Positions 3 to 22,367 of a DNA stretch of 22,367 nt are shown here, one piece after another. Made by a program: the position numbers and the translations under genes. Positions within the stretch are counted from its first letter, which is position 1. The number at the start of each line of letters is the position of its first letter. The notes beneath the pieces were generated by a model that saw nothing but the letters and a program-made list of their open reading frames with translations, had not been told where the DNA came from and made no database searches. The stretch comes from a virus: IMG/VR virus record IMGVR_UViG_3300037567_001121, positions 1 to 22,367 of that record. One strand, given 5' to 3'.

Positions 3-3000
3 CTTATGCAGTATGCTGATGAAGTTGACCTTGGAGTCAAGGCAGCATCTGCATTGATTGAAAATGTCATCACTATTATTGAAGGTACTGACACTATCTA
101 CGAATTGGCAATTTCTGAGGAGACTCTTACTGGGGATTTCATCATTCCTTACAAGACTACTCTGGTTGAGCCATTAACAACAACTGGTAACATCATTACA
201 GTTGACTCAACGATTGGATGGCCTGAAAGAAACGGCACCATTCGTGTTAATGACCAAGAAGTTGCACAGTATAAAGAAAAATCACTTAACCAGTTTATTG
301 AATGCACCAGATCCCAAAATGGGGTGGTTGAAGACTGGGATCCTGGCACTCTAGTAACGAGTGACATCTTTGTATACGTTAATCGTGGCACTGTTGCCGA
401 ATGTAAGCTTAGAGTCCTTGGTATTGCTGAAGCAGGCACCACTATCCTGAATGACACAGGATCTTACTACCTACAAGGCGATAAACTGAAAGTTGCTAAG
501 TTGGGATCTAGTGCAGATGACGAAAAACTGTCTTCTTGGCTCTACAACGTTAAGAAACTGATTCAAGTTTCCACGATTACTCCTGGTGGTATCAACAATC
601 AGACTGCTACAGTTGTTTGTGAGAATCCTCATGGTCTTCTGGTATCTGACCAGGTTACCATCTATGGTGCAAACCCTGTTGTCTATAACGGCACGTTTAC
701 AGTTACATCTCGTATTAATGAGTTTGAATTCTCATATCAGATCAATACTCCTACAGAAATTATTCCTGCAGGTAACATCTTGCTGTCGGTTGACCTAAAC
801 AGAGGTAAGTCCGACGTTAACTCTATCAATAAAGTTGTAAGTGAGTTTACGACCAACATCCAAAACTCCTTCTTTAATGATAATTATGTCTATACAGCAA
901 CCTCAGGTCTTCCAAACTATAAGATTGGTCCTTTCACAGGGTCGGCACTGATTCCTGGTAACCAGCGTAAACTACTTCGTTTCCCTAGAGTTGTCCAAAC
1001 CATCTCTGAGCGCCAAGAAATCACAGCGAATACCTCGATTGGTGCTTGGGTGAATGGTGTGTCTATCTGGGCATACAAGTCTGGTGACTTTGTTAGATTC
1101 GGTCCTTTGACTGGAATTAGTGTTATCAATAATGGTATTGACTATGATGCAGGATCAAAACCTGCTCTAGAGATCACTGGTGGTGGCGGTACAGGTGCAG
1201 CTGGTGAGGTTATTGTTAATGGTAGTCTAACATCATTCGATGTTACTGTACAAGGTAGTGGATACACTGACTCACCTTTAGTTTCTATTGTTGGTGGTGG
1301 TGGCGTTGGTGCTACCGCGCAAGCAGTTGTCACTGGTGGTCGTGTCAGCAGAATCCTGGTTGAGCAACCAGGTAGTGGATATACTTCACAACCCAGTGTT
1401 TCGATTACTGGTGGTGGTGGATCAGGTGCTGAAGCAAATGCAAACGTCCGTGGTCCTATTGCTAGTGTCAACATCACTAGCACAGGTAGTGGATATACTG
1501 AATTACCTACCATCAAAGTTAACTCTGGTGAAGATGCTTTGGCACAACCCATTGTTATCAATGGTCGTATTGTTTCTATCGCTATTATTAACTCTGGTAG
1601 TGGATATACTACTGCTCCCGAGATTGTAATCAATGGTGATGGTTTTGGTGCTATTGCAAGAGCAATTATTGGCACTATTGGTGAAGACAAAGGTAGAGTC
1701 CTTGGTGTTGACATTACTAACAAAGGTATTGGATATACTCAGGGTCTTACTACAGTCAGACTTGAGTCTGTTGGAGACTTTGCTGAGTTTACCCCTCAAG
1801 TGTTTGAGTGGAATAAGAATTTACAGTATGAATTGGAAAGTAAATATGACAATGCAAGAGGATATGTCTTTACTGGTCTGAATAACCAGTTTGGTGGTGA
1901 GTATGCTCACCTCAGCGATCCTAAAGAGTTGCGTTATGTTGTTGGAGATAACGTCTTCCTCAACCCTGTTACCCAGAATTTCCAAGAAGTAGCATCTAAC
2001 TTTGAGCACTCTCCTATCCTTGGTTGGGCATTTGATGGTAACCCAATCTATGGTCCTTATGCATACATTGATCCTACCGATCAAAACAGTGGTGTTAGAA
2101 GACTTCGCACTTCATACAAATTAAAAGATAATGTTGTCTATGACTTAGCAACTAACCCAAATCCTGCTCGTATTGATGGTCCTGCATTGGATTCATACCC
2201 TGCAGGGACATTTGTTGCAGACTATACTTATGACTTCCAGTCTGGTGATCTAGACAACTATAATGGTCGTTTCTGTAAGACACCACAATTCCCTGATGGC
2301 ACATATGCATACTTGATTACTATTGATGCATCTGAAGCAGGTATTGCAGAATTCCCATATATCCTTGGTCCACAGTTTAACTCTCTGCCTGACCCTTGGA
2401 ATTTCACTCAGGGTGCAACTCAAGAGAATATTCCTAGTAATGTTGTAAGATATAGAGATCCATATGTCAACGTTGACATTGATATTGATCGTCAACCCAA
2501 CCAGGAAGCAGATACCTTAACGACTGAGATCGAAGGTTATCCTATTATCTTCGAGATTCAAGATAGCAATAATGACGGCATCATCGATGCTAATGAGCAG
2601 CAAGAGATTCTAGAGATGTCTGAAGAGGCAACTCTACAAATCTATGACTACTTCCCTCAAGTATCTGCAGAATCTAGAGTTGATATTGAAGTTGAAACTA
2701 CTACTCAGTTTGAGGATGCTCAGATTGACGGTTTTGTCATTGAGAACCCTGGTGTTTCCTATCAGGTTAATGATACTGTCTTCTTTGACGATGCTGATAC
2801 TGGTGGATTCGGTGCATCAGCACTTATTGAGTCTGTCAAAGGTCAAGTAGTTGCATCTTACAATAAAGAAATAATTGGTGATCGCCCTTATGGTGTGATC
2901 ACTACATCTGCTAACCATGACCTGAGGCAGCAAGACGAGATCATCGTCAACTCCACTCCTGTCATCGATAATACCAATAAAAACTTCAAAGTTAAGGTTG

Positions 3001-6000
3001 TTTCTGGTATCGAGCGTATTGATATCGTCCAGAATGGTATTGGATACAATGAAGACATTCCTCCAACCTTTGAGTTGATCACTGAGTCAGGTCAAGATGG
3101 ACAACTAGAAATCATCCTGGCAAATACGGGACAGATCAATACCGTTGATATCATCAACTCAGGTAATGGTTATGATCCAGAGAACCCTCCACAGATCCGA
3201 GTATCCCACCCACAGCAGTATAAGAAGACTCGCTATTGGTTGACTGAATATGAGGAAGCAAGTGGCATCATTGAAATCAATGATATTAAAGTTACTGCTC
3301 AGCGTTATACCTACATTTGCGGTAAGATCACTGAGACTGATGGTGATGAATCTGGTTTCCTTGCTAAGTTTGATGACTTGGGTCAGAAGATCTGGGAGAG
3401 GACACTGATCCCAATCAACGCTAACCAGAAGAGATCCGAATTCATTAAAATGGTGGTCAATGACTCACCAGAAAACGACCTTATATATGTTACAGGCCAA
3501 ACTAAAAACCCTGACACCGATGTATACAACCCAGACATCTGGATTGGTCTATACGAGTCTGGATTCAACAATGCAAACGATCCTGACGGTATCTTGCAGT
3601 GGCAGAGAGCAATTGCTGGTATCTCTGGTAGCACCAGAAGAGACTATGTAACTTCTATCGCTCTTGATCAGGAGCAACGTATCTACCTTTGCGGTTATAC
3701 CGATACTAACTCTGTTGATCCCGATGATATGTGGATCATCCAGTGTGGCATTGAAGGCGATCTGGTTGAGAAGCGTAAGGTTGCATCTCAGGACGATTCT
3801 GAGAAGATGCATCAGATCATGTGGATATCTGATGATCGATTCTTCTTCCTTGGCATTAATGACCAGAATGATGACCTGATCTTTGGTGAATTCTTCTACG
3901 ATGGTGCAAACATCGAGATGGATTGGATCAAGCAAGTCCCAACTGTTGGTGGACGTGTTGTCAATCCTAGAATGATCCAAGATGACTATGGGTCTATCAT
4001 TGTTATCTGGGATGTCTTCAATTCTGCTGCTTCCAAGTATGATAAAGTCCAAATCAGCAAATTCCTGCTTGAAACTGCTGATACCGAATGGGATTGGAGT
4101 AAGACTATAACTACTGGTGGTGATTTCCTTGAAATGCATCATGCAGGCGTTAACTATGATCAGTGGGGCAACTACTCACTCGTCTTAGACATCACCGAGG
4201 CACAAAATCAAAGATATGCCATTATTTCATACATGAAGTATGATGGCACTCTGATAAGTCAGACTAAAATTGACGATACTGCAAGTATTGGTTTCAAGGC
4301 AGTAGATCATGCACTTGACAACTCAGGTGATACGATTATTGCTGCAAACCGTCAACAATCTGATCAACTAGCATCTCTACGTTTTGACAACGCCGCAAAT
4401 CCTGTTGAGGACACCACCAAGCAAGAACTTGGCACTTATGCATATTTTGATCAGGCAAATAACTCGATTGATACTACAGTCTATAAGTTTGGCACAGGAT
4501 CCTTTAAATTCTCTGCTCATGCTCCTGTAACTATCAGCAATCTTGGTCTGACTCCTCTTGAATGGAGTATCAGGTCCTGGATGTCCATGGATACAACTGC
4601 ATGGAATACTGCTCACGAACCTACACTATTCCATGTTAATGATGCGACTAATACTAACTCAGTAACTATTACTATTGATGGCGATCCTGGATCCGCTGAT
4701 TATCAGAAAGTTAAACTGTTTATCAATGGATCTCAAGCAGGATCCTCCACTGCTGTAACTAACTGGGATGCCTTTGCTGCTGCAGCATGGGTCCACGTTA
4801 CTGTCCAGAAACGTCAAGAGTCTTTGGGTCTCTACAAGTATGAAGTATACATCTCTGGAAATCAGCAAGTAAGTTTCCAAACTACAACTGATATTGCTCT
4901 TGATGATGTTGTTATCTGTGGTCCTGTTTCTTCACCAACTGCAACTAACTGCTTCATTGGTAATATTGATGACTTTGTGCTGGATGATAATGCACCTTAT
5001 TCTGGTGTTTCATATACAGTCCCAACAACTGTTATTCCTGTTACAACATCAAACTCCGACATTGTTCTAATTAAATTTGATAGGGAGCACACCCAAAGAG
5101 CAACATATTCTATGTCTGGTCTTACCAAGCATAGTGAGATCGTATTCAGTGATGCAACGATCGGGTTGACTTGGACCATTGCAGCACTTCCTTCAATCAG
5201 TGTATGGGATGAAGGTCCTGGTGGTTTGCAGATCTTGGATATGTCGCAAACTTTCTCTACGATGAATCCTGGTACATATACACTATCGTCCCAGTATTAT
5301 CAGTATGCTTCTAAGACTTCTACAATTCCTTCACCACTTGGTAAGAGACTTGTAATCAATGCTGAAGTTATTCCCAAATTCTACATGAGGGATGCACTTT
5401 ATCAGAAAATTGATAACGTCCAAGAGTTTACTTTCACTCAACCAATTAAACTTACTCAGTATACTATTCTTCAGCAGTTTAATGCTGTAGGAACTACTAC
5501 AGCATTCGGAACGATTACCGAAATACCTGCAGGCACTCTTCGTAATCCTGGTATAGGCACTAAGTATAGGGTTGGTAAAATCTATGGCACATTTAACAAT
5601 ACTGACAGATTCAGGACTGTTGCTAATGATGTAAACCAAATTGAAGGCACTTACTTCGATACTATTGAAGAAGAATCACCTTGGGCAGCATCTACTGCAT
5701 ATAATGCAGGTGATCGTGTTTACAATCAGAAGAGAATCTATGAAGCACAAGGTGCTGGTACATCTGGCACAATTTCACCTCAACATACCACTGGTGTTGT
5801 TTCTGATGGTGTTATCAACTGGGCATTTATCGATGATTCAGGTAAGTTTACTGTCGATCTGCTTGAGCACCCATATCCTAGACCCACATTTACTGGTCTG
5901 GATATGCCTGAGTGGTTGCCACATCGCCTATATGCTGTTGGACAGCGTGTGTGGTACAAACTAAACGTATATCAGGTTGCTGTAGGCGGCGGTGGAGTCA

Positions 6001-12000: not shown

Positions 12001-15000
12001 AACTTCTGACTGGTGGCACAATCCTTGCCAACAACTGGCATCACATTGCAGTTGTGAGGACAACTGCTGTCCTGCAATTGTATGTTGATGGTATCCAAGT
12101 TGGCGGCAATTATGCTGACACCAATGATTATGGTTACGCTGCAGTATACCTCGGCGCTGACTTTAACGCTGCTAACCAGTTTACTGGATATGTCGATAAC
12201 TTTGTTATCAAGAATGGTGAGTCCGACTTCAATACTGGATTCGTGCCACCTACACAAATTGACTACAACAACCAGTATGTCATGTTTGGTCTTGATGGTG
12301 AGCAACCATTCGTTATGGACAACCAGGAGACTTATGCGATCTACACAGGTCAGCGTATCTCCTCTGCTGCTGTTAAGGAACTTAACTACGATCAGAAGTT
12401 TGCAATCATTGAGAATGTTGACCTTGGTAGATCAGATCACAGAAACGCTGCTGATATTATCGATCTCAACGCTGCATGGATTGCTGAGGAGGCAGTTGGC
12501 AGAATGTCTGCTGCATTCCCAGACTTCACTATTCCTGGTGATAACCCTGCTGAAGGCGGTTATGGTGGATCAAATACATGTGTCAGAGACACCAAAGATT
12601 ACATCCTTGGTGCTCTTGTCAAGGACTTGAAAGATGGTGGTAACTACAACTCACTCTATACTGCTCGCACATACCTTGAAGCATCAGGCAAACTGAAGCA
12701 CGTTGGTGGAGAGATTCTACAAACTCTGTATGCATGGGATCAAGCATTCGTCTTGTCCAAGTATGTGATTACTACTACTGATGTCAGTCTGACTGGCACC
12801 TATACAGATAGACTGAGAATTCCTAACAACTTTGCTTCACCAGCATCACAAACCATCCAAGATGAGTTTGATCTGCTAGGTCGCGAAGTGCTGGAAGTCC
12901 TTGCACCTAATCCTGATATCTTCAGAGACACTGGTGTCCTTATCTGGAAAAACCGCGATTATATCGCTCAGGAAACTGCCGAGTATATCCTCGACAAGTA
13001 TACAATTAACTTCGGTGGTGTTGAAACACCATTCCTCGAAATGCCTGGTTATGGTCAACCATACTGTGAGAGAGATGTTAAGAAATTCATTCTCCCTGCC
13101 GTAATTGCTGACCTCTGCACAGGTGGCACATACAACACTGAAGCAGTAATTGATCAGTATCTTGATGATCAGGAAAACATCTTGCATGTTGAGCATGAAT
13201 TGAATCCAATGTTGGATGCATTTGAATATGCGAAGATGCTTTGCATTAAGGCAGGCAATAACTTGCTGCTGTCTCCTGGTGAGGCATCTGCTGCACTCGG
13301 TGCCCCTGCTTGGGCACAAGATGACTACTACACCCCACTATTCACAACACGCACTGCATACAGAGATGATACTATCATCATTGACGATGAAGGTTATCCT
13401 CAAAATAACGTTTCTAATTGGAATCGTTACAAGGATGCTACCAATACTCTCAAGGTAAATGCAGATCTGATTGCTCATGAAGCAGTTGAGATCATGAATG
13501 ACTTGTCTAAGTATGGCAAGTTTAATATCCCTGGCGGTCCAGTTAATTGTGTGGATGATGTTAAGGATGTCCTCGCAGGTCTCACCCATGACCTCAACTA
13601 CAACTGTAACGAGAAGACTTGGGATGCTGCATCACTCTATGTTGAGACTGAGGATAACTCCCTCAAGCATATTGAAAAAGAATGGGAAGCATCTATTACC
13701 GTTATGAAGATTGCAAGAGACCTTGCAACTCTCACCATGAGAAATGGTTTCGGTAGAGATTATATCGAAGGTAATGATCCTCTCAGCACCGATCTCTCTT
13801 CATATAATGCAAACCCATATGAAGCAATCTATAAGGATTGTGCAGATGTAATTGATTCCAACATTCGCCGTATTGCAGAGAATGCAGTCTACGAAGGTCT
13901 GGTCAACTATCCAGCACTAAACATCAACGGTGGAGCTAGTGCAATGTGGTGGAAGGAATTCACACCTACCACTGCAGGATATATTGCAACATCTGGTGTG
14001 TTGACTCTTACCATTCCTGGTCATGGACTAAGCAAAGGTGAGTCAATCAGTATTGCAGCAAACGGTCTGACTTTCACATGCAGTCAAGATTCTAATGCTA
14101 CCAATCACCCATATCCTCGCAATACAGACCCTGCATATGAAAAGCGTCTGGTTATTGAAGATGTCACTCAAGACACAATTGCAGTTAATGTAGGCAAGTC
14201 TCCAGCAGGTCAGCAGTATACACACACGTTTGTATCTGCAGTTACTGGTGCTATTCGCTATGGATGGAATATTGGTGGAGAGCACTTCACCCCATCAACT
14301 GCTTCTTATACTGCATCTACGGGCGATATGGTCTTGACCATCCCCAACCACTCCTTCAATGTCGGTAATAGAATGTCTATTGCTGAAGATAGTCTGGTAT
14401 TTACTTGCTCAAACGACAGTTATGGTAGTGAGCATTCATACCCACGTAAGGGCGATCCTGCATACAATACAACCGTTGGAGTTACTGCAGTCGGCACATC
14501 TTCTCTAGATGTAACTGCTGCAACATATGCTGCTGACAGTGGATTGATGACACTCACCTGCTCCATGAGTCATGGGTTGTCAACTGGAAACAGAATCAAA
14601 CTGGTTACTGACTCCTTGAGATTCACATGTGATCAGGATGCTAATGGTAGCAATCATGATTATCCTCGTGCTACAGACCCTGCAGCAGATAAGTGGTTGA
14701 TTGTTACTGTCATAGATGCCACTACGGTCAGTTGTTATGTTGGTGCTGCAGCAGTTGCAAATCAGTATACGCACGCATTCGTGAGTGCTACCTCTGGTGC
14801 AGTTGTCAAGCAAGATGGCACTGTCACGGTCAACGTTGGTGCTTCTCCAGTGGGTCAACAATATACTCATGCATTTGTAAGCACTACACCTAACTCTATC
14901 ACTTCTTCTGGAAGTATTGATTGCGTCCATGATGTAACCGATATCCTGAGAGCACTGGTCTTCAACCTCAAGTATGGTGGAGACAACTGGATGAATTATG

Positions 15001-18000
15001 TTTCCGAATTCTATGTTACTTACGCAGGTAACCTGGCACATGTGACATCTCTGGCAACAGAAACAAATTGGATTCTGGATAAGACTAAGGAGTATGTGAA
15101 GCGTGCAATTCGTGGTCAGATTATCGCAAATAATTCTGGTTATGAGATTGCTCAAAACTTCTCCAATGCAGTCCCCAAACCCACTACGGTGCTTCTGCCA
15201 TCATCACCAGACACAGGTATTGAGATCGGTGGAACATATGCTCAGAATCCTACACGCACGTTTACTAATGGCGTTATCGATATCGATAACTCATCCAGCT
15301 CCACAACTGGTCAAACCATCGATGAGGATTTGACTTGCAGTTGTGTTACGGTCCTCCCTGCAGGCACACCTGCTGATGGCGTCCTCTGGGAAGGTGGTGG
15401 TAGTGGATATGGATCCTACATCGGCATCAGAGACAGCGGCACATATCTGAGACTTCGTGCTGGTGATGGCGGCAACTCTTTTGCTGGCGGCACTACAACT
15501 TACACTGATACTGGTCTTGCACTTCTCGACGTGGCAGTTTCTAGTCTGTCAGTCTACTTCGATGGTAATGAGCACGAGATCACTTGGGAGATTAGAGTTG
15601 GCGGCACTGCTGCTGCTGGTGCTGGTCGTGTCAAACTCTGGATTGATGGTAACGAAATCGGATCTGCTGAAACTCCTGGTGCAGGCACCTTTACTGGTCT
15701 TGGTGCTGGCACTGGCGCATGGTCAGATGGTAATGTGGGTGGTTTTGCTGCTACGGCAGGTGCTGTGCCATCGGGTGAATCAACAACAGCATGGGCATAT
15801 GCAACAGGAGATCTTACATACTATAGATCACGTCTAGTCGATCCTGGTTATACAGGACTTGAGTCTGATGATGTTGCTGCGAGAATTGATTCTCTGATGC
15901 TTCTGGTCACAGATGCAATTTCCAACCCTAGTAATGTTACTAATCGCACGAGCACCCTTCCCTGGATTTGGCCCGTTAAGTATACCCCTGAAGTTTGTGT
16001 AAGAGATCTTACAACTACATTTGACAGCAGTGCTGCTGAGATGAATCAATCATGTAATGAAGTTGCTTCTGCCATCGATACCTTGATGAGCATCTATATT
16101 AATACCATTGAAAACGCAGCAAACAACAATACTAACTATCTCACGGGTGTTGCTAGGACTACAAGGTCTAGTGCATATACCAATAGCATCTATCAGGAAG
16201 GCACATGTGCTGACGTAGGATCTGCAATTGAAACTCTGTTTGATCTGATGAGTAATACTCTCGGACATGGCAGGAATACCGACAAGATGATAGCAACTAT
16301 GCTTCTCTTCAATGAGAATGCAATTGCTACCAGAGCATACGATGCAACTCTTGCATATTACGGGACAACTGCTATGACAGTTGACTTCTGTAAGGATATC
16401 ATTAAGGCAATTCGTTATGACATGGTTACAGGTGGTAACGCAGGTGCGTTTGGACTTACCCAAAACTGGTTTGATGGTGAAGGCAACTTTATCGCCTTCC
16501 AAGATGTCCTTAGATCACATCTAATATATGCTAATACACGCGTACGCGAGTATGTGAAGAGTGTCTTGTATCAGTTGACAACAGATCCTGGTTGGGCAAA
16601 CTATACAACATACAATGCAGCAGTTGGTGAGACTCTTGATTACAACAGAGAAGCATCTGAGTTTATTATTGACTCCTCGATTAACTGTGTTGAATATTCA
16701 CTAGAGACTTCCAAATTCCCAACTGAGGGAAGTGTAACATTCATTCCTAGCTCCGATTGCCAAAACTTCAAGCGTCTATATGAAACGGGCGAAGATTATA
16801 ATACCGATCCAGCATTGGTATCACTTACGCCTGTTGTGCCAGTTGGTTTCGACCGTGCTGAGTATAGAATCAGAATCAATCGCGTTAACTCTTTCAGAAG
16901 AGGCGATATCCTGCAATACATCCCAGCATCTACGAATTCTGTCAAGGCATTCACAAATCAATCTTATTGGTATGTGATGACTGCTACCTCACAGTGGTTT
17001 GAAGTTGGTGCTCACTACATTCACGATGGTAGATTCAGACAACTTGAAGTTGATCTTTCCAATAATGGATCACAGATCTTCGCAGTCGTCAGACGCAGTG
17101 GAATCACAAGAAATACTATCTCGTATCCTTCTGATCCATCACAAACCCCAATCCAAGGTGGATTCAATCCTGCTGATGTTATCTACGGCACAACGTCAGA
17201 GTCTAGCTCTGAGGTTGCATCTCTCGTACTCAACCAAGCGAAGATCAAGCGTCTGTATGAGCGTTATGACTTAACCAACGTCAGTTCGACTCTGGGTGTT
17301 TATGAAAACTTCCTCAATGGCGAGCAAGTATTTGTCCAAGGCACGCCTTCTATCACCGCCACCGTCCTGCAGACAACTAAGACTGCAAATGATGGCACCA
17401 ACTTCCTCAACCTGACTACAGTCGCTGGAGTTATTAACAACGGTGCAATTCTTGAGGGTCTCGATTCTGGCACGACTGCTGAGGTTGTCTCACATGACGA
17501 TCGCATGTTGGTCAATGTCCAGAGAGGTGCTTTCGCACAAGGTGACTGGTTGTTTGATAAGAATACTTCTACAGAAGCATATGCTAATCAATATGAAAAC
17601 GCTTCAGGATCCCTTACGGGCAATGAAGGTGGTCGCATCACAATCGATGTTGAGACAATTGATTCACCATGGGAAGCAGGCGATGTTATCTACGGCAGTG
17701 TTACTGACTACATCCTTGATATTAAGGGTCTATCAGGCACACAGATTCAACTCAACCAATACATCCATGGCACCAGCATCATTCAACTTGAGTTGGGACC
17801 AGCAATTATTGATACTGGAGTCTCCGACACATTCCGTGTGGGCGATGAGATTAATCTCTTGCAAGGCACCACGATCAAAGAGCCTGGTTTCAAGGCAACT
17901 GTCACCAAGTATGTAAATGGATTGAATGCAGATCCTGCAGATCCCAACTATGGAATTCATAGATTGTGGATTGGTAATCTGATCCCCGCAGTCAATGGTC

Positions 18001-19580
18001 AACTCACTGCAGACATTAGTGAAGTCACCAACGGTGCCAACAACATAGGCAAAATTGATATCGGATCTAACTTCCCAACGATCTACGCTAACGTAGTTTC
18101 TTACACAGATACTGCGGCTAGTGTATACGGGCGCGTGGCTGCTATTGAGCAGCAAGGCATTACGGCAACTGTCTGGTTGGAGAATGTTTCAGGTGTCTTC
18201 CAAGACAACATGAGCGTCATTTCCGACTACGGTTGGGGTGGTGCAGTTACCTCTGCACGCACGCTTGAGGGTCGTGTTGATCGTTACTTCCGTGGTTTCG
18301 ACGGTAATCAGACACAGTTTGATCTCACGATCAGCAACGGTGAAGCATACTTCCCAGATCCTGCTGGTCACATGCTCATCTTCGTCAACGGCATCCTACA
18401 ACCCCCTGGTGGTAACAATTCCTACGTTGCATTCTCCGACAAGATTAACTTCTCTGAAGCACCCGAAATCGGATCCGAATTCGTTGGTTACTACGTTGGT
18501 AAACTTCGCCAGATGGATGACATCAGTTTCGAGTTTGACTCGTTACGCTCGTCCTTCAACCTCAGACGTGAAGGTTTATTCTACTCGCTGACGCTGACTG
18601 AGGGTGTTTCTTCTAACGTGATTCGTCCAGAAAACAACATCATCGTTTCGCTCAACGGTATCATTCAGGAACCTGGAGTTGCATACGAGATTGTTGGATC
18701 TAGAATCATCTTCGCTGAAGTGCCTCGCGCAGGATCAACCTTCGTGGGATTCTCCTACATTGGATCTGACACTGACGTGATTGCAGCGACAGTTGTGCCA
18801 CCTGTGGAAGCAGGAGACCAACTCTACATTGAGGGTGAAGAATTTAATCGCGAGGTTGCTCTGATTGAATCTTCCAACTCACTGATCACATTTGAATACA
18901 CAGGATCTGTTAAGGGTCGTAACGCAGCAGCAATTGCTGAGATTAGATCTGGTCAAATTGAAAGTGCAATTCTTACAAATCCTGGTGATGGTTATGATTC
19001 ACGCCCCAACGTGGATGTGATTTCATCTTCAGGTTTTGATGGTCGTATCAAGGCATTGATGGGCATCACTAGAATTGACGTGAAGACACCAGGGTCTGGA
19101 TATGCTACTCCTATTGTTTCAATTGATAACACAGTCCCTGATGACTTTGTAACTCCTGTAGGCACACCTATCAACGGTGGTTTCGACATCTACGCAGGTG
19201 AGGGACCTGAAGGTAGTGCTGGAAGCAATATCACTCCTGGCACAATTGCCATCATACAAGATCCTGTTAACGTCACCGTTAACCAAGGTCAGACTGCTGC
19301 ATTCTCAGTGGTTGCAACGGTCAGTAACAATGAGCAACGCAACTATCAGTGGCAGAAGAAGGAGTATGGCACACAGACATGGAGCAATATCATTGGTGCT
19401 AACCAAGCAGTACTCGATACGGGTATTGCTGCACAGGCAGATGATGGTGATGAATATCGTGTTGCAATCACTGCAGCGGGTGCAACGCCTGTCTACTCAC
19501 TGAGCGCAGTACTTACGGTGCAGACTGGAGCTACTGTAATTAGTAACTTCAACCCAGCATCAATCTTCGATGACATCTAA
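3..19580 (+). CDS. giant modular virion structural/adhesin protein, 5' partial
   Basis: A single frame of over 6,524 codons runs to TAA at 19578-19580 without a stop. The first ATG is at 6, but the in-frame codon before it (CTT, 3-5) is sense and no ribosome site is visible in the five available bases, so the gene probably starts upstream. The protein is a mosaic: GxGY arrays, a degenerate YHYH domain, an EF-hand loop, a propeller-like block, three concanavalin-like domains, CBM-like units, Cys-anchored helical modules, FTC/YTHAFVSA modules, LNG-PG modules and a C-terminal Ig-like domain. No catalytic motif or membrane segment was seen. These module types are typical of very large structural proteins of T4-like marine phages. 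The next genes, including one gp10-like, place it in a tail/baseplate cluster. I infer a role in the tail periphery or host adhesion; it could instead be a baseplate component carrying adhesive insertions. The exact function is not recognisable. Confidence 0.95.
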   Translation, partial: LMQYADEVDLGVKAASALIENVITIIEGTDTIYELAISEETLTGDFIIPYKTTLVEPLTTTGNIITVDSTIGWPERNGTIRVNDQEVAQYKEKSLNQFIECTRSQNGVVEDWDPGTLVTSDIFVYVNRGTVAECKLRVLGIAEAGTTILNDTGSYYLQGDKLKVAKLGSSADDEKLSSWLYNVKKLIQVSTITPGGINNQTATVVCENPHGLLVSDQVTIYGANPVVYNGTFTVTSRINEFEFSYQINTPTEIIPAGNILLSVDLNRGKSDVNSINKVVSEFTTNIQNSFFNDNYVYTATSGLPNYKIGPFTGSALIPGNQRKLLRFPRVVQTISERQEITANTSIGAWVNGVSIWAYKSGDFVRFGPLTGISVINNGIDYDAGSKPALEITGGGGTGAAGEVIVNGSLTSFDVTVQGSGYTDSPLVSIVGGGGVGATAQAVVTGGRVSRILVEQPGSGYTSQPSVSITGGGGSGAEANANVRGPIASVNITSTGSGYTELPTIKVNSGEDALAQPIVINGRIVSIAIINSGSGYTTAPEIVINGDGFGAIARAIIGTIGEDKGRVLGVDITNKGIGYTQGLTTVRLESVGDFAEFTPQVFEWNKNLQYELESKYDNARGYVFTGLNNQFGGEYAHLSDPKELRYVVGDNVFLNPVTQNFQEVASNFEHSPILGWAFDGNPIYGPYAYIDPTDQNSGVRRLRTSYKLKDNVVYDLATNPNPARIDGPALDSYPAGTFVADYTYDFQSGDLDNYNGRFCKTPQFPDGTYAYLITIDASEAGIAEFPYILGPQFNSLPDPWNFTQGATQENIPSNVVRYRDPYVNVDIDIDRQPNQEADTLTTEIEGYPIIFEIQDSNNDGIIDANEQQEILEMSEEATLQIYDYFPQVSAESRVDIEVETTTQFEDAQIDGFVIENPGVSYQVNDTVFFDDADTGGFGASALIESVKGQVVASYNKEIIGDRPYGVITTSANHDLRQQDEIIVNSTPVIDNTNKNFKVKVVSGIERIDIVQNGIGYNEDIPPTFELITESGQDGQLEIILANTGQINTVDIINSGNGYDPENPPQIRVSHPQQYKKTRYWLTEYEEASGIIEINDIKVTAQRYTYICGKITETDGDESGFLAKFDDLGQKIWERTLIPINANQKRSEFIKMVVNDSPENDLIYVTGQTKNPDTDVYNPDIWIGLYESGFNNANDPDGILQWQRAIAGISGSTRRDYVTSIALDQEQRIYLCGYTDTNSVDPDDMWIIQCGIEGDLVEKRKVASQDDSEKMHQIMWISDDRFFFLGINDQNDDLIFGEFFYDGANIEMDWIKQVPTVGGRVVNPRMIQDDYGSIIVIWDVFNSAASKYDKVQISKFLLETADTEWDWSKTITTGGDFLEMHHAGVNYDQWGNYSLVLDITEAQNQRYAIISYMKYDGTLISQTKIDDTASIGFKAVDHALDNSGDTIIAANRQQSDQLASLRFDNAANPVEDTTKQELGTYAYFDQANNSIDTTVYKFGTGSFKFSAHAPVTISNLGLTPLEWSIRSWMSMDTTAWNTAHEPTLFHVNDATNTNSVTITIDGDPGSADYQKVKLFINGSQAGSSTAVTNWDAFAAAAWVHVTVQKRQESLGLYKYEVYISGNQQVSFQTTTDIALDDVVICGPVSSPTATNCFIGNIDDFVLDDNAPYSGVSYTVPTTVIPVTTSNSDIVLIKFDREHTQRATYSMSGLTKHSEIVFSDATIGLTWTIAALPSISVWDEGPGGLQILDMSQTFSTMNPGTYTLSSQYYQYASKTSTIPSPLGKRLVINAEVIPKFYMRDALYQKIDNVQEFTFTQPIKLTQYTILQQFNAVGTTTAFGTITEIPAGTLRNPGIGTKYRVGKIYGTFNNTDRFRTVANDVNQIEGTYFDTIEEESPWAASTAYNAGDRVYNQKRIYEAQGAGTSGTISPQHTTGVVSDGVINWAFIDDSGKFTVDLLEHPYPRPTFTGLDMPEWLPHRLYAVGQRVWYKLNVYQVAVGGGGVTTPTPPTHTTGDTSDGNVTWTFVETNEAISDYTRLMGYDLGNNYRIQIMEVHPGSNYIPNDVVSVNADNITLAADEKSVEISGFPSVKKIRVTARLEQDVILASSIRTDKVYCTSNSAHFYKASDILYTEGFSGNQFNGSFFVDDVIGTREFTFSIRASAVSEPTFVNSGIQNVNVYAKHPTLIFTRNHQYNFELSDASNFGYYLSFSQDNQYKLEYSFNNTVREGTPGIAGAGASSPFVKFLVLGDVTNISYYFDPSRTGSNSPVGENSYVDVINTPYAGRFAISEIVSDTEFKFPLNREPERSSAEIGMNDQEEEYSYYSTTSTRAVGPINTIKLVSPGGFYKKLPIISDIASFRQIEKVVVIDGGTEYASGVYYDVPIAGDGEGGKAIVTVTLDEETGSGALSTVAVSDPGKGYTTASIDIDAIPGILGATLSGSGGAVNVIIPLEGSGASVFLTGKNIGKIKRLKNNEFGFGYSHDYTLKPEITFPVNLQLFNTSILSEIKITDPGSGYTSTPAVVIEGGGGQGAEAIAVIKNNRLNEITIKNPGGGYSSEPVVTLKSEFNYVVNLDLNYLQFNFPHGITTGAEIQFRAENVGTTVGILPKPSSAGLTSLVEGQIYYAIAGNLNSLESDQIRFGLTLQSAQAGDYITFLTQGSGRQVVLTEVFGGKAEAVVATSRFLEGEEVFQGISVEQASATGKVSTNVGWQIGPKILKIVDYDGEWQMGEKVTGKISKASGVIDNMSIARGVLNIGSLTKTPGKFIDNVGKPSEIVQKIQDSFFYQNFSYVIKSEIPITKWKTQLLQNNHPAGFNMFGQLQLTGGKDISGRKVGTEFTKEVNINNYSNVNQITSFGAAQPIYTDYNNTEVLFRKKRLTSSEEILTSIVKKLDSIQSQFNGIDKQFPLTVEGQQVIVQQNQLMITINGVIQAPGESYNIVGGQIVFAEPPKPASRVNYRTLGVTPTPIYRVQLFSGQAGPANYGIFPTLGQQVIGKDSDAVGTVIDSGTSHIDIINVTGTFNLNEAIERGTLFSGLILSITQLNVNTIFQFGESLTNLDGDTAIIEETNIDEQGGVTDSLVVSKTSGTAQFETGIFDFRLNEFVYSASSKIAGQITFISPYIDPATLDAVDELIINPGSTFYGLLFERLVSITNPNVILDNISQSSITPTLLNDSSNRINSDFLDFEEVRNTEIEYTQLTGGAFSENDTVLNNRALFGNAVSVFHGGAANRFKDASRMILGNKQEIIDFAEAEIAVKHPRFYFPGDIITNNWSRYSDAYRLIQKNREYIANKAYDEMMTQYSSLTVPDPSKCVRDILLYIDALSLDTFRGGNVYTCKLSQKYFDADNNFVYVNSESQETRYGFEKAKDLMLLALTNNITANYTSQYGPNTGITYTAYNEVDAGGYDGNGITADPSPNDPYGTNGANQSNNGTDNCSDVQAAITTLYDVVNEVMLNGTLVDLPDVSLGSYSPGQIKCRRDIGLMIDALAEDISQGGNYNIVEFTKKYFDAAGAPIANGLIGEYAESLTAIDKAMHLAFRAINNLLYYQVNSRVPESGYMLKDPSTYAGPYFDGATDLSEFDVTGAVYTPSSGDLVMTIGTHSLTTSDTVKIRPHSLKFTCASDGDATFHDYPRAGDPAFNTNLAISAAGATTITVNIGATPLLQFTPTAATYDPATGDMEITIGTHTLELNDYVNISDNALTFTCDMDANGSNHTYPRSSDPASGRRLYIHGTTATTITVNVAASPDDQQYTHAFVSATANSVTSGGGYAHTFINALPNAVHNGGGTRAQYFDPNYSSGRNETIQNCADVQAYIATLVDISTTAISAGNLTNINSLASITDGTFVAGENIRTTKIAYKDRSGGLFIVGNTITGVTSGATFEAIGSNSGLKWIFAASVTGTFTDREYITNSSIANQNNVSQSVITKYKRLSGSKSVRFPATGYLVSRDSYDFSFGNTADFTIQGWFNADAIGTTQHLVDLRRLSATSGLRILIDPAGAVKVYNGTSQLLTGGTILANNWHHIAVVRTTAVLQLYVDGIQVGGNYADTNDYGYAAVYLGADFNAANQFTGYVDNFVIKNGESDFNTGFVPPTQIDYNNQYVMFGLDGEQPFVMDNQETYAIYTGQRISSAAVKELNYDQKFAIIENVDLGRSDHRNAADIIDLNAAWIAEEAVGRMSAAFPDFTIPGDNPAEGGYGGSNTCVRDTKDYILGALVKDLKDGGNYNSLYTARTYLEASGKLKHVGGEILQTLYAWDQAFVLSKYVITTTDVSLTGTYTDRLRIPNNFASPASQTIQDEFDLLGREVLEVLAPNPDIFRDTGVLIWKNRDYIAQETAEYILDKYTINFGGVETPFLEMPGYGQPYCERDVKKFILPAVIADLCTGGTYNTEAVIDQYLDDQENILHVEHELNPMLDAFEYAKMLCIKAGNNLLLSPGEASAALGAPAWAQDDYYTPLFTTRTAYRDDTIIIDDEGYPQNNVSNWNRYKDATNTLKVNADLIAHEAVEIMNDLSKYGKFNIPGGPVNCVDDVKDVLAGLTHDLNYNCNEKTWDAASLYVETEDNSLKHIEKEWEASITVMKIARDLATLTMRNGFGRDYIEGNDPLSTDLSSYNANPYEAIYKDCADVIDSNIRRIAENAVYEGLVNYPALNINGGASAMWWKEFTPTTAGYIATSGVLTLTIPGHGLSKGESISIAANGLTFTCSQDSNATNHPYPRNTDPAYEKRLVIEDVTQDTIAVNVGKSPAGQQYTHTFVSAVTGAIRYGWNIGGEHFTPSTASYTASTGDMVLTIPNHSFNVGNRMSIAEDSLVFTCSNDSYGSEHSYPRKGDPAYNTTVGVTAVGTSSLDVTAATYAADSGLMTLTCSMSHGLSTGNRIKLVTDSLRFTCDQDANGSNHDYPRATDPAADKWLIVTVIDATTVSCYVGAAAVANQYTHAFVSATSGAVVKQDGTVTVNVGASPVGQQYTHAFVSTTPNSITSSGSIDCVHDVTDILRALVFNLKYGGDNWMNYVSEFYVTYAGNLAHVTSLATETNWILDKTKEYVKRAIRGQIIANNSGYEIAQNFSNAVPKPTTVLLPSSPDTGIEIGGTYAQNPTRTFTNGVIDIDNSSSSTTGQTIDEDLTCSCVTVLPAGTPADGVLWEGGGSGYGSYIGIRDSGTYLRLRAGDGGNSFAGGTTTYTDTGLALLDVAVSSLSVYFDGNEHEITWEIRVGGTAAAGAGRVKLWIDGNEIGSAETPGAGTFTGLGAGTGAWSDGNVGGFAATAGAVPSGESTTAWAYATGDLTYYRSRLVDPGYTGLESDDVAARIDSLMLLVTDAISNPSNVTNRTSTLPWIWPVKYTPEVCVRDLTTTFDSSAAEMNQSCNEVASAIDTLMSIYINTIENAANNNTNYLTGVARTTRSSAYTNSIYQEGTCADVGSAIETLFDLMSNTLGHGRNTDKMIATMLLFNENAIATRAYDATLAYYGTTAMTVDFCKDIIKAIRYDMVTGGNAGAFGLTQNWFDGEGNFIAFQDVLRSHLIYANTRVREYVKSVLYQLTTDPGWANYTTYNAAVGETLDYNREASEFIIDSSINCVEYSLETSKFPTEGSVTFIPSSDCQNFKRLYETGEDYNTDPALVSLTPVVPVGFDRAEYRIRINRVNSFRRGDILQYIPASTNSVKAFTNQSYWYVMTATSQWFEVGAHYIHDGRFRQLEVDLSNNGSQIFAVVRRSGITRNTISYPSDPSQTPIQGGFNPADVIYGTTSESSSEVASLVLNQAKIKRLYERYDLTNVSSTLGVYENFLNGEQVFVQGTPSITATVLQTTKTANDGTNFLNLTTVAGVINNGAILEGLDSGTTAEVVSHDDRMLVNVQRGAFAQGDWLFDKNTSTEAYANQYENASGSLTGNEGGRITIDVETIDSPWEAGDVIYGSVTDYILDIKGLSGTQIQLNQYIHGTSIIQLELGPAIIDTGVSDTFRVGDEINLLQGTTIKEPGFKATVTKYVNGLNADPADPNYGIHRLWIGNLIPAVNGQLTADISEVTNGANNIGKIDIGSNFPTIYANVVSYTDTAASVYGRVAAIEQQGITATVWLENVSGVFQDNMSVISDYGWGGAVTSARTLEGRVDRYFRGFDGNQTQFDLTISNGEAYFPDPAGHMLIFVNGILQPPGGNNSYVAFSDKINFSEAPEIGSEFVGYYVGKLRQMDDISFEFDSLRSSFNLRREGLFYSLTLTEGVSSNVIRPENNIIVSLNGIIQEPGVAYEIVGSRIIFAEVPRAGSTFVGFSYIGSDTDVIAATVVPPVEAGDQLYIEGEEFNREVALIESSNSLITFEYTGSVKGRNAAAIAEIRSGQIESAILTNPGDGYDSRPNVDVISSSGFDGRIKALMGITRIDVKTPGSGYATPIVSIDNTVPDDFVTPVGTPINGGFDIYAGEGPEGSAGSNITPGTIAIIQDPVNVTVNQGQTAAFSVVATVSNNEQRNYQWQKKEYGTQTWSNIIGANQAVLDTGIAAQADDGDEYRVAITAAGATPVYSLSAVLTVQTGATVISNFNPASIFDDI
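1134..1740 (+). repeat. GxGY beta-repeat array A (six units, giant gene)
   Basis: Six in-frame units begin with a G-[ST/I]-[GD]-Y motif at 1134, 1254, 1371, 1485, 1596 and 1725, so spacings are 120, 117, 114, 111 and 129 bases (37 to 43 codons). The common pattern is GSGYT..P.V.I.GGGG.GA.A.A.V..G.V..I.V...GSGYT. The DNA motif ggtagtggatatac is almost identical in four of the copies. This unit is familiar from large phage and marine bacterial surface proteins. A beta-solenoid-like stalk is my inference. Confidence 0.85.
2001..2375 (+). other. degenerate YHYH-like domain in the giant protein
   Basis: Residues about 666-790 align with the C-terminal half of the YHYH domain of the downstream gene. 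EHSPILGWAFDGNPIYGPY here matches GHSKIIGYAFDGFPIYGPY there, and GDLDNYNGRFCKTPQF matches GDLDYHNGRFCITPEF. Both then run through GTYAY to EFPY. The family's signature YHYH stretch is not found upstream in this copy, and the DYHNG histidine is replaced (DNYNG). The His before the AFDG motif is retained. It is either a decayed copy or a structural derivative. Confidence 0.8.
2562..2597 (+). other. canonical EF-hand-type calcium loop
   Basis: Residues 853-864 read DSNNDGIIDANE. This fits the 12-residue EF-hand loop with D1, N3, D5, G6, hydrophobic 8, D9 and E12. It is followed by an acidic helical stretch (QQEILEMSEEATLQIYDYF). A single unpaired loop in an extracellular structural protein resembles dockerin-type or isolated calcium-stabilised loops. 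Calcium binding is inferred from the motif. Confidence 0.75.
2715..3215 (+). repeat. GxGY beta repeats B (diverged)
   Basis: Three diverged units are visible: IDGFVIENPGVSYQVNDTV, then IERIDIVQNGIGYNEDIPP, then INTVDIINSGNGYDPENPP. They follow the I..V.I.N.G.GY...PP pattern of array A but lack the GGGG turns and are separated by non-repeat sequence. They directly precede the propeller-like block. Confidence 0.65.
3306..4390 (+). other. probable seven-bladed SBBP-like beta-propeller
   Basis: Seven strand starts recur at 3306 (YTYICG), 3477 (DLIYVTGQT), 3678 (RIYLCGYT), 3837 (RFFFLGI), 3993 (SIIVIWD), 4170 (NYSLVLD) and 4329 (DTIIAAN). Spacings are 52 to 67 codons. Between them lie outer-strand patterns such as FLAKFDDLGQKIWERTL, WQRAIAGISG, MDWIKQVPTVGG and WDWSKTITTGG. 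The D...(R/I)IY..GYT signature with a following W.(R/K) strand is that of SBBP/beta-propeller repeats. The blade count comes from reading the sequence and has not been modelled. Confidence 0.6.
4480..4996 (+). other. LamG/concanavalin-like domain 1
   Basis: Residues about 1492-1664 contain the usual jelly-roll landmarks. These are a YKFGTGSFKF start, then WSIRSWM, VKLFINGSQAG, AAWVHVTVQKR and YEVYISGNQQ, ending in CFIGNIDDFVLDDN. This matches LamG/ConA-like lectin domains, which often bind carbohydrate. Ligand and activity cannot be told from the sequence. The domain follows the propeller-like block directly. Confidence 0.75.
5676..6075 (+). repeat. two CBM5/12-like units
   Basis: Two copies share the pattern W....Y..G.RV.....Y......G......P.HTTG..SDG...W.F. 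Copy one begins SPWAASTAYNAGDRVYNQ and ends GVINWAFID. Copy two begins EWLPHRLYAVGQRVWYK and ends GNVTWTFVE. The W/Y-rich small fold resembles carbohydrate-binding family 5/12 units used in phage fibres. Polysaccharide contact is inferred. Confidence 0.65.
7077..7692 (+). repeat. GxGY beta-repeat array C (giant gene)
   Basis: Units include VVVIDGGTEYASGVYYDVP, then VAVSDPGKGYTTASIDID, then IKITDPGSGYTSTPAVVIEGGGGQGAEA and ITIKNPGGGYSSEPVVTL. The first two are diverged; the last two are close to array A in both protein and DNA. A non-repeat stretch (about 7290-7500) interrupts the array. Confidence 0.75.
8676..8878 (+). repeat. LNG-PG fibre module, copy 1
   Basis: The pattern is F.L.V...V.....L.ITINGVIQAPGESY.IVGGQIVFAEPP. 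This matches the small beta module common in phage fibre proteins (L.V.[LV]NG..Q.PG..Y...G..I.F..AP). Two further copies lie near the C-terminus at 18285-18768. Confidence 0.7.
9800..10645 (+). repeat. Cys-anchored helical modules 1-2
   Basis: Each module has an N..YIA..A helix or a CSDVQ helix, then C-[VR]-R-D, a hydrophobic helix, GGN and a further helix. Module 1 has KCVRDILLYIDAL with its Cys codon at 9921, then FRGGNVY and QKYFDADN. Module 2 has NCSDVQAAITTLYDVV (Cys at 10290), then KCRRDIGLMIDALAED (Cys at 10413), SQGGNYN and KKYFDAAG. This alpha-helical unit contrasts with the beta-rich remainder and recurs five more times downstream. Confidence 0.75.
10737..11337 (+). repeat. FTC-YPR-YTHAFVSA modules R1-R2
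   Basis: Two tandem beta units follow the pattern Y....G.M..TIG.H.L...D.V.I....L.FTC..D...H.YPR..DPA....L.I...T..TITVN. Their FTC cysteine codons are at 10852 and 11097. R1 ends early (IGATPLLQF). R2 is full length (QQYTHAFVSATANSV) and is followed by a shortened extra tail, YAHTFINALPNAV. The family resembles modules seen in large cyanophage structural proteins; its function is unknown. Confidence 0.75.
11775..12235 (+). other. LamG/concanavalin-like domain 2
   Basis: This is the clearest lectin-like domain of the window. Its landmarks are SVRFPATGYL, DFTIQGWFNAD, QHLVDLRR, LRILIDPAGAVKVYNG, NNWHHIAVVRT, LQLYVDGIQVGG and FTGYVDNFVIKNG. The WHHIAVVR and LYVDG signatures are characteristic of LamG-3-type jelly rolls. 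It sits between a CADVQ helix and helical module 3, as though inserted into the helical array. Carbohydrate binding is inferred from the fold. Confidence 0.85.
12456..13760 (+). repeat. Cys-anchored helical modules 3-5 (tandem)
   Basis: Three consecutive copies have anchor cysteines at 12579 (TCVRDTKDYIL), 13065 (YCERDVKKFIL) and 13548 (NCVDDVKDVLA). Each is preceded by an IA-type helix: AAWIAEEAVGRM, KNRDYIAQETAEYIL and VNADLIAHEAVEIM. Each is followed by DL..GG or an equivalent, a tyrosine-rich helix, a KH[IV] or LHVE step and a final helix. Copy 5 has lost the GGN glycines (LNYNCNEK). The period is about 483 to 486 bases. Confidence 0.75.
13959..14911 (+). repeat. FTC-YPR-YTHAFVSA modules R3-R5
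   Basis: Three more copies of the beta unit have FTC cysteine codons at 14079, 14406 and 14628. R3 is full (QQYTHTFVSAVTGAI). R4 stops at GTSSLDV without the YTHAFVSA tail. R5 carries two tails in a row, NQYTHAFVSATSGAV and then VTVNVGASPVGQQYTHAFVS. The array is inserted between a DCADV helix (Cys codon 13839) and helical module 6. Confidence 0.75.
14919..15130 (+). repeat. Cys-anchored helical module 6
   Basis: DCVHDVTDILRALVFNLKYGGDNW carries its anchor Cys codon at 14922. It is followed by a Y-rich helix, NLAHVTSLATE and a closing amphipathic helix (DKTKEYVKRAIRG). It starts directly after the last YTHAFVSA tail and lacks the preceding IA-type helix. Confidence 0.65.
15280..15835 (+). 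other. concanavalin-like domain 3, Gly/Ala-rich
   Basis: Residues about 5092-5275 show beta-sandwich landmarks: DEDLTCSCVTVLPAG, GVLWEGGGSGYGSYIGIRD, YLRLRAGDG, VYFDGNEHEITWEIRV, RVKLWIDGNEIGSA and GTGAWSDGNVGG. The pattern suggests a ConA-like lectin/glucanase fold. The region is visibly richer in G and C than its surroundings and in Gly/Ala codons, which may mark separate acquisition. Confidence 0.6.
16296..16580 (+). repeat. Cys-anchored helical module 7 with preceding CxDV helices
   Basis: The helix LLFNENAIATRAYDATLAYY is followed by DFCKDIIKAIRYDMVTGGNAG (Cys codon 16389) and the final helix REYVKSVLYQ. Two short helices of the CxDV type lie just upstream: SCNEVASAIDTLMSIY (Cys 16053) and TCADVGSAIETLFDLM (Cys 16206). 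This is the last copy of the helical module. Confidence 0.6.
17296..18284 (+). repeat. short-strand beta array (F..GE.V type)
   Basis: Loosely repeated units of about 25 to 50 residues follow the pattern [FI]..GE.V......TA.V. Examples are YENFLNGEQVFVQGTPSITATV, GVINNGAILEGLDSGTTAEVV, GAFAQGDWLFDKNTSTEA, PWEAGDVIYGSVTDYI, TFRVGDEINLLQG and GVFQDNMSVISDYGWGGAV. Similar strands occur around 8025-8250. This is a common element of large cyanophage structural proteins. The unit borders are approximate. Confidence 0.5.
18285..18768 (+). repeat. LNG-PG fibre modules, copies 2 and 3
   Basis: Two tandem copies are present. The first has MLIFVNGILQPPGGNNSYVAFSDKINFSEAP. The second has NIIVSLNGIIQEPGVAYEIVGSRIIFAEVPRAGS. 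They share L.NGI.Q.PG..Y....[DR]KI.F.E.P with copy 1 at 8676, about 10 kb upstream. Confidence 0.7.
18915..19131 (+). repeat. GxGY beta repeats D
   Basis: Two units are visible, IESAILTNPGDGYDSRPNVDVI and ITRIDVKTPGSGYATPIVSIDN. This is the last occurrence of the GxGY unit, just before the terminal Ig-like domain. Confidence 0.65.
19236..19530 (+). other. C-terminal Ig-like domain of the giant protein
   Basis: Residues about 6411-6508 read as an Ig-like sandwich: IIQDPVNVTVNQGQTAAFSV, then YQWQKKEYGTQTWSNIIGANQ, then DDGDEYRVAITAAG and SAVLTV. The core Trp (YQW) is present, but there is no disulphide cysteine pair. It resembles the Ig-like domain at the end of the next gene, and a 14-residue tail (ending SIFDDI) follows. 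Confidence 0.75.
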
Positions 19581-21218: not shown

Positions 21219-22367
21219 ATGGCAAAGCAAAACCTTAGCATTGGATCGTCAGCTAATGACGGGACTGGTGATAGTCTTAGAGATGGCGCTATTAAACTTA
21301 ATAGTGTCATTGACGAAATCTATACCGCTCTCGGCAATGACACTAATTTACTTGTGAATGTCGGGACACCACTTTCTGGACAAGTATTGAAGTGGAATGG
21401 ATCTCAATTTGCTGAGGGTCATTTTGATTCCTTGAGTGCAGATCTAGATACTGGTGGATTTGATATCATCTCTTCTAATAATGTAGACGTTACTATTAAA
21501 CCCAATGGTAGCGGTGATATTAAGTTTTGGGCAGGGGGTACTGGAAGTGCTCTTACTTATATTGATGGTGCTGATGGCAAACTAAAATGGTCTAACCATT
21601 TTGATGACGTTGCAAGTCTCCCAGATGCATCAAACCATCATGGTATGTTTGCTCATGCCCATAGTGAGGGACATGGATACTTTGCACATGGTGGTGCTTG
21701 GATTCAACTGATTGACTCGGGATCTAGTGTTGGTGAGCTCACTGACGTTGATATGACAGTTGGTGGTGGTCCCTCTGACGGGCAGGTCCTCAAGTGGTCT
21801 GCTGCCAATAGCAACTGGTATCCAGATAATGACGAATCTGGATCTGGCGGTGGTGGTGGCACTACACAAAATTTATTTGAAGGTATTAATGCTGATTCAG
21901 GATCTACTACAGCGAGTGCTGCTACTGACGTGCTCACTATTGCTGGTGGCACTAATATCTCCACATCTATTGCTGGTGATACGGTAACGATTGATATGAC
22001 TGGGGCGCTTGGTGCTCCTGATCAAAATCTTTTCTCGGTTATTGGGTCTGATTCTGGATCTAAAACTGCAGGAACTGCTACAACAACTATCAATATTATT
22101 GGTGGCACTGGAGTTAGCACAGCAATTTCTGGTGAGAATCTTACAGTTACTAACGATTCCCCTAACGTTGATCAAAACATTTTTGCGACAGTAACTGGTG
22201 ATAGTGGCACTACTACTTCTAACTCCACTACTGGATCATTGGCAGTCAGTGGTGGAAGCGGTGTAACAACAACTGTTACTGCTAATACCGTCAGCATTGC
22301 TGCTGAATTGTTTCTTGCTAGTGGTCAGTCTCTGTCAGAGAATCAGAGTTTCATTACTAATGTAAGT
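21219..22367 (+). CDS. gp10-like N-terminus fibre/baseplate protein, 3' partial
   Basis: The frame is open from the ATG at 21219 for 383 codons to the window edge. The N-terminus (MAKQNLSIGSSANDGTGDSL, then RDGAIKLNSVIDEIYTALGN) closely resembles the start of T4 baseplate wedge protein gp10 (MKQNINIG..VDDGTGDYL, RKGGIKINENFDELYYELG). Later segments are typical of phage fibres: two SGQVLKWNGS-like motifs (SGQVLKWNGSQF and DGQVLKWSAANSNWYPDN), a VTIKPNGSGDIKF strand, and a His-rich stretch at residues 140-157 followed by GGAW. Three tandem repeats of about 50 residues begin at QNLF (residue 217). The start is clear because the gp10-like motif begins at this Met; no strong Shine-Dalgarno is visible. 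I infer a tail or baseplate protein that attaches through its N-terminus and extends outward as a repetitive fibre. Whether it is the gp10 orthologue or a fibre with the same docking segment cannot be decided here. Confidence 0.92.
   Translation, partial: MAKQNLSIGSSANDGTGDSLRDGAIKLNSVIDEIYTALGNDTNLLVNVGTPLSGQVLKWNGSQFAEGHFDSLSADLDTGGFDIISSNNVDVTIKPNGSGDIKFWAGGTGSALTYIDGADGKLKWSNHFDDVASLPDASNHHGMFAHAHSEGHGYFAHGGAWIQLIDSGSSVGELTDVDMTVGGGPSDGQVLKWSAANSNWYPDNDESGSGGGGGTTQNLFEGINADSGSTTASAATDVLTIAGGTNISTSIAGDTVTIDMTGALGAPDQNLFSVIGSDSGSKTAGTATTTINIIGGTGVSTAISGENLTVTNDSPNVDQNIFATVTGDSGTTTSNSTTGSLAVSGGSGVTTTVTANTVSIAAELFLASGQSLSENQSFITNVS
21867..22320 (+). repeat. three tandem QNLF repeats in the fibre-like gene
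   Basis: Units start at 21867 (QNLFEGINADSGSTTASA), 22023 (QNLFSVIGSDSGSKTAGT) and 22173 (QNIFATVTGDSGTTTSNS), so the period is 156 then 150 bases. Each continues T..L.I.GGTG[IV]ST.I.G..[VL]T[IV]. This Ser/Thr/Gly-rich beta repeat is common in fibres of marine T4-like phages and probably continues past the window edge. Confidence 0.8.

Follow-up and report, generated by a model that had tools for sequence, protein, structure and literature searches.

The window analyzed here is the whole 22,367-nt stretch of IMG/VR virus record IMGVR_UViG_3300037567_001121 (positions 1 to 22,367). It holds a single giant frame on the plus strand, which runs for 6,525 stop-free codons, is open at the left window edge, and is covered by PHROG 701, and two genes downstream of it (Table 1). 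The first of the two, assigned to phrog_25852, occupies the same place in the cyanophages P-TIM40, S-SZBM1, P-RSM6, and S-WAM1. Its YHYH and Ig-like modules are 36% and 30% identical, respectively, to those of the giant. Sequence comparison suggests module exchange between the giant and this neighbor (19595 to 21193). Tandem repeats and tRNAs were looked for, and none were found.

TABLE 1 Features of the window (nucleotide positions; residue positions are marked aa)
Feature	Position	Strand	Remarks
Giant baseplate wedge protein (T4 gp7 family, PHROG 701)	3–19580	+	Start upstream of window
GxGY beta repeats (aa ~400–590)	1200–1772	+	Also in other baseplate and neck families
YHYH domain PF14240	1887–2330	+	E 2.6e-27
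SBBP beta-propeller repeat	3624–3707	+	E 4.3e-5
LamG-like domain 1	4518–4979	+	E 0.001, below Pfam cutoff
CBM5/12-like module	5652–5834	+	E 3.9e-7 to 7eea (short-tailed cyanophage; tailspike domain that binds the receptor)
gp7 core B motif YVIKSEIPITKWKTQLLQNNHPAGFNMFG	8355–8447	+	Equivalent to T4 gp7 863–892
Phycobiliprotein-like domain R1	9783–10139	+	CVRD at aa 3307
Phycobiliprotein-like domain R2	10275–10631	+	CRRD at aa 3471
Slot 1, HxYPR beta cassettes	10725–11327	+	Presence varies among relatives
LamG domain 2	11784–12215	+	E 2.2e-9; match crosses P0002/P0003 boundary
Phycobiliprotein-like domain R3	12441–12797	+	CVRD at aa 4193; PF00502 E 0.013
Phycobiliprotein-like domain R4	12927–13283	+	CERD at aa 4355
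Phycobiliprotein-like domain R5	13410–13766	+	CVDD at aa 4516; model matches phycoerythrin, Z ~10
R6, first half	13815–13934	+	Pre-slot helix ending ..NINGG
Slot 2, HxYPR beta cassettes	13935–14921	+	329 residues within the R6 loop before the bilin-Cys position
R6, second half	14922–15140	+	CVHD at aa 4974; post-slot helices
Degenerate seventh phycobiliprotein-like domain	16239–16607	+	Cys out of register; E 5e-7
C-terminal Ig-like domain	19263–19547	+	Common to giant and next gene
Neighbor, YHYH and Ig-like virion protein (phrog_25852)	19595–21193	+	
Neighbor, T4 gp9/gp10 N-terminal domain protein (phrog_677, baseplate-fiber connector)	21219–22367	+	Cut by window end

An intact giant gene with its start upstream

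An earlier note, made from the letters of the window, had described the frame as one uninterrupted phage gene, and it proves to be no artifact. Given the base composition of the region, an open frame of 6,525 codons would arise by chance with a probability of ~10^-167, and homologues are present as intact single ORFs in P-TIM40 (7,351 aa), S-SZBM1 (6,619 aa), P-RSM6 (8,573 aa), S-WAM1 (6,737 aa), Syn19 (6,483 aa), Syn33 (6,376 aa), and S-RIM8 (6,395 aa). The window being a metagenomic fragment, the frame could in principle be an assembly join of separate genes, the finding that the earlier note had named as speaking against its claim; however, intact ORFs in these seven cultured genomes exclude such a join, 78 out of 80 independent loci from IMG/VR (gathered with a 350-aa piece of the giant protein) keep the frame open, and dN/dS is low throughout, all of which makes this explanation next to impossible. 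The two loci with an early stop are L046 and L073. Across every 600-codon block tested, dN/dS lies between 0.07 and 0.38 (with its maximum around aa 4800 to 5400): the giant gene is under purifying selection along its length, as had been supposed from the intactness of the frame. The same gene reaches still greater sizes in G007, G008, G009, and G011 (the contigs of loci L040, L056, L062, and L081), whose frames of 9,560 to 9,914 codons (>1 MDa) hold an extra 2,300 to 2,600 residues.

The start lies upstream of the window, again in line with the earlier reading. The first residue of the window aligns with residue 763 of the P-TIM40 homologue, so that ~762 codons are missing, and in the IMG/VR relatives the in-frame stop before the start falls at the matching place. 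We estimate the full-length protein at ~7,290 aa and 790 kDa, of which the window copy represents residues ~763 to ~7,287, and the full gene at ~21.9 kb, or ~12% of a 188-kb genome (close to the tenth of a genome first guessed).

Identity with the cyanophage gp7 family

The giant itself is already known: it is the published giant gp7, or baseplate wedge protein, of cyanophages (PHROG 701; P-TIM40, S-SZBM1, and P-SSM4), with which it shares gene identity, the place after gp6, and modules, being 53 to 60% identical over the first 3,560 residues but carrying its own combination of slot contents. GenBank records of P-SSM4 and P-HM1 already name the gene gp7. In P-TIM40, S-SZBM1, P-RSM6, S-WAM1, Syn19, Syn33, S-RIM8, and P-SSM4, the giant gene directly follows gp6, where T4 has gene 7, and this counts in favor of gp7; the order is 25-6-7 in the giant relatives, as it is 6-7 in T4, and the downstream genes of the window agree with the wedge-cluster neighborhood of these relatives. 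Profiles of two conserved stretches match T4 gp7 at residues 732 to 759 and 863 to 892, above 2,000 shuffled copies, and an N-terminal profile finds T4 gp7 as its best PDB match (E 0.007). The homologue in S-SZBM1 (724 kDa) was found in virions by mass spectrometry, with 71 peptides and 13.5% coverage (PMC9146016).

Two cores, A and B, occur in the same order in 18 of 18 family members ranging from 498 to 8,573 aa (the search used an iterated model, whose E values are inflated); the window shows core B alone, core A belonging to the missing upstream part. What varies is the gap between the cores: 10 residues in SRB7757, 90 in T4, 447 in Cr30, 728 in phiM12, 1,383 in S-PM2, and ~2,600 in the giants (maximum, 2,610). 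Domain V of gp7 (residues 766 to 861) occupies the gap in T4. The giant is seven times longer than T4 gp7 (1,032 aa; 5IV5), which has the cores in the same order; its domain V slot spans ~2,600 aa, versus ~90 in T4, GxGY repeats stand where T4 has an N-terminal fibronectin-like domain and those following it, and the phycobiliprotein-like domains described below are missing from T4. Alg12 of AlgoCIS, whose gp7-like part is described as a hotspot of evolutionary reengineering that binds different fibers, is far smaller than the giant, and the passages on it mention no phycobiliprotein-like domains (PMC8894135).

The Pfam gp7 domains V and VI (PF21427 and PF21456), which were built on T4-type gp7, match T4 gp7 but not the giant; since they also miss three short gp7 proteins of the family (phiM12, Cr30, and IME-SM1), these domains appear confined to phages closely related to T4 and do not cover gp7 as a whole. 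Neither P0001 nor P0003, used as single-sequence queries against the PDB, matched gp7 or a phycobiliprotein, and the AlphaFold model of the core B region (window aa 2610 to 3060) failed, with a pLDDT of 41.

Phycobiliprotein-like domains and exchangeable cassettes

The region following core B holds at least six domains homologous to phycobiliproteins. In the window, six copies are good and one is degenerate; these helical modules lie on either side of the slots, and their C-x-[R/D/H]-D is followed by GG. A profile of 78 nonredundant repeats, first gathered by a pattern requiring C..D, yielded 120 matches among 177,635 PDB sequences, led by phycocyanin alpha (2vjr, E 1.2e-6), and its alignment places the phage Cys-x-Arg-Asp on the bilin-binding motif and the phage Cys on the bilin-binding Cys. 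When the 78 repeats were scanned singly, PF00502 (Phycobilisome) was the leading Pfam family, matching 23 (best E 4e-5) against 3 for the next family; single domains of the window stay below the curated Pfam cutoff, which was exceeded in 6 of 20 records.

Such a pattern might arise by chance if unrelated helical bundles shared the C-x-R-D ... GG motif, and both the weak single-domain scores and the collection of repeats by a pattern requiring C..D speak for that explanation. Against it, the best 60 of the 120 PDB matches are all phycobiliproteins. Because the repeats had been gathered by their C..D, a second search masked the motif columns and recovered the same domains: of 363 domains, 332 carry a Cys in the aligned column, and 331 have C..D nearby. 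A fold comparison free of both the pattern and any phycobiliprotein sequence points the same way, in that the AlphaFold model of aa 4400 to 5080, built from phage sequences alone and of moderate confidence, ranks phycoerythrin-type structures first (rmsd 2.5 to 3.9 over ~110 residues; Z 9.7 to 10.4, where the tool itself rates a Z of ~10 as only moderate when the domain is helical). Foldseek alone on the slot 2 model found no match below E 0.001, phycoerythrin coming first only after realignment. Overall, chance resemblance is very improbable.

Like the phycobiliproteins (PF00502: phycocyanin, phycoerythrin, and allophycocyanin), the phage domains combine a helix-loop-helix with the C-x-[R/D/H]-D motif followed by GG, and by the model they may share the fold as well; unlike them, they stand in tandem within one virion protein, their late helices have diverged, and the loop before the Cys can take 112 to 756 residues of beta cassettes. 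Similarity is concentrated in the first two or three helices (profile positions 7 to 64 of 115), the divergence affecting the later pocket helices, and R5 and R6 have Asp or His in place of the Arg of C-x-R-D. Among themselves, the domains are often 20 to 35% identical. Those lacking the aligned Cys either have a Cys beyond an inserted cassette or have lost it (as in YIAD of P-TIM40). No earlier report of phycobiliprotein or phycobilisome domains in cyanophage tails was found in the open-licence literature, and their presence in giant gp7 is apparently unreported, although that literature alone does not prove novelty.

The giant is mostly collinear with its relatives, slots 1 and 2 being the two exceptions, and part of the variable region (aa 3260 to 5050) swaps modules at fixed sites. 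The slot 2 site lies between ..INGG and CVHDVTDIL, where relatives hold 3, 112, 329, or 756 residues; in the AlphaFold model, the cassettes fold as beta domains, with one helix of the last repeat on each side. On the tree of a conserved region, the state of slot 2 has changed at least eight times, and for the empty state well-supported branches require six changes; both slots are empty in S-SZBM1, S-WAM1, and P-RSM6. Three loci (L080, L083, and L084) have a slot ~70% identical to that of the window between flanks of 45 to 51% identity, the pattern that independent movement of the cassette would leave. HxYPR cassettes also occur in tail fiber and short tail fiber genes of other cyanophages. Growth by accretion and recombination, as earlier suggested from the changing module types, is thus supported for the variable region, where modules have been gained, lost, and exchanged. 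Of the earlier interpretation, the phage origin of the gene, the selection on it, and its changes of module hold up; the published gp7 identity and the phycobiliprotein-like modules had gone unnoticed. The slot 2 cassettes (13935 to 14921) also resemble the FCCH domain of the ubiquitin-activating enzyme E1 (Z 9.3 over 79 aa) and, with a Z of 7.6, the endosialidase of phi92, and gp7 of DSL-LC02 gives a weak E1_FCCH Pfam match; this likeness may be that of a common barrel, and we claim no relation.

Bilin genes and the proposed role of the giant

We surveyed 26 isolate genomes, 22 of them from cyanophages, with the repeat profile and with PF06206, the Pfam family of the phycobiliprotein lyase CpeT. 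Phycobiliprotein-like domains are present in 15 of the 26: within a large gp7 in P-TIM40, S-SZBM1, P-RSM6, S-WAM1, Syn19, Syn33, S-RIM8, and P-SSM4; within other very large structural genes, alongside a shorter gp7, in S-PM2, S-CAM1, S-CAM3, S-RIM44, ACG-2014j, and ACG-2014f; and within both in P-HM1. CpeT was found in 14 of the 15 genomes with domains and in none of the 11 without, or, among the cyanophages alone, in 14 of 15 versus 0 of 7 (Fisher p ~5e-5 by hand, ignoring shared ancestry); these counts, like those of synteny, come from related phages and hence are not independent. In S-PM2, S-CAM1, S-CAM3, S-RIM44, and ACG-2014j, the domain-bearing gene is preceded by cpeT at a distance of 0.3 to 1.5 kb. 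A 2OG-Fe(II) oxygenase gene separates the two in all but ACG-2014j, and coordinates suggest the same order in several more species. The domain-bearing gene of these five phages (L114 to L118) is fiber-like and encodes 3,670 to 4,060 aa. Bilin reductases (5 of 20 records) and heme oxygenase (3 of 20) are sparser, which could fit hosts supplying the bilin. For the Prochlorococcus phage Syn1, cpeT is both annotated and matched (NC_015288, 19929 to 20462) and domains are present too; Table 3 of PMC3037559 gives no cpeT for this phage. The same paper, a comparative study of cyanophage genomes, lists S-SM2 and S-SSM7 without CpeT, and these two phages would be predicted to have no such domains. What pcyA and pebS do in phages is "a mystery" to its authors, and the role of cpeT is "unresolved" (PMC3037559).

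These associations raise the possibility, the less likely one, that the virion is a biliprotein, with phage CpeT (plus PebS, PcyA, and HO1 in some phages) loading bilins onto the Cys of gp7 or fiber domains. The domains are probably, instead, a borrowed stable helical scaffold that carries no pigment, with Cys and Asp serving folding or disulfides and CpeT acting on host phycoerythrin. The replaced Arg in two of the six window repeats and the diverged later helices point to such a scaffold, as does one phage with weak domains that lacks CpeT; moreover, T-type lyases reportedly act on beta-subunit Cys-153 and not on the Cys-84-like site (PMC10452541), and the conserved Cys of the phage domains is the Cys-84-like one. 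A pigment-free scaffold is harder to square with the retention of the aligned Cys by 332 domains out of 363, whose mutual identity is often just 20 to 35%, with the confinement of CpeT to genomes with domains, and with the position of cpeT just upstream of the domain-bearing fiber gene in five phages.

We put the probability at about 0.85 that the giant is a Kyanoviridae (T4-like marine cyanophage) gp7 of ~7,290 residues that has kept its cores and carries phycobiliprotein-like domains, which may serve as a scaffold presenting cassettes and lectin-like modules to the host surface, so that gp7 would double as an adhesin. It would most likely keep its wedge role through cores A and B, which presumably pack with gp6. 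Its copy number is presumably that of T4, where gp7 is a monomer present six times per tail (PMC3004832). Some 2,600 residues have grown between the cores, where T4 gp7 has its domain V, and ~3,700 more follow core B, in a region that contains at least six phycobiliprotein homologues, predicted to be globin-like, at least one of them taking swappable cassettes before the bilin-Cys position. The added mass would form peripheral arms that meet the host, composed of YHYH, LamG, CBM-like, and Ig-like modules and fiber-shared cassettes, with the phycobiliprotein-like domains as the peripheral scaffold that may present cassettes and lectin-like modules. S-SZBM1, S-WAM1, P-RSM6, and P-TIM40 are reported to be without long tail fibers (PMC9146016), and gp7 may therefore replace such fibers in these four phages. 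During coexistence with its host, S-PM2 gained nonsynonymous mutations in large structural genes (PMC9910659), among them gp7 (S-PM2d081, 3,048 aa, matched by its length) and S-PM2d218 (3,779 aa), which bears the domains; such changes would fit host contact.

Cutting of the giant chain into smaller proteins after synthesis seems unlikely. Size alone would favor it, and the 59 [IL]xE sites (the gp21-type protease site) exceed the ~45 expected, a weak excess; however, no protease domain was found in our analysis, and the virion proteome of S-SZBM1 has one 724-kDa entry, given without peptide positions, which does not exclude cutting (PMC9146016).

A virion protein built of phycobiliprotein-like domains and accompanied by cpeT, often adjoining, is a concrete candidate substrate for the unexplained bilin genes of cyanophages. 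If the virion were indeed a biliprotein, these long unexplained genes would have a structural substrate, and adsorption or baseplate triggering could respond to light. Even without bilin, a light-harvesting fold of the host would have been recruited into a virus baseplate, where it offers a fixed site for the exchange of adhesin-like cassettes, and the graded sizes of gp7, from 498 aa to frames of ~9,900 codons, provide material on how a structural protein grows.
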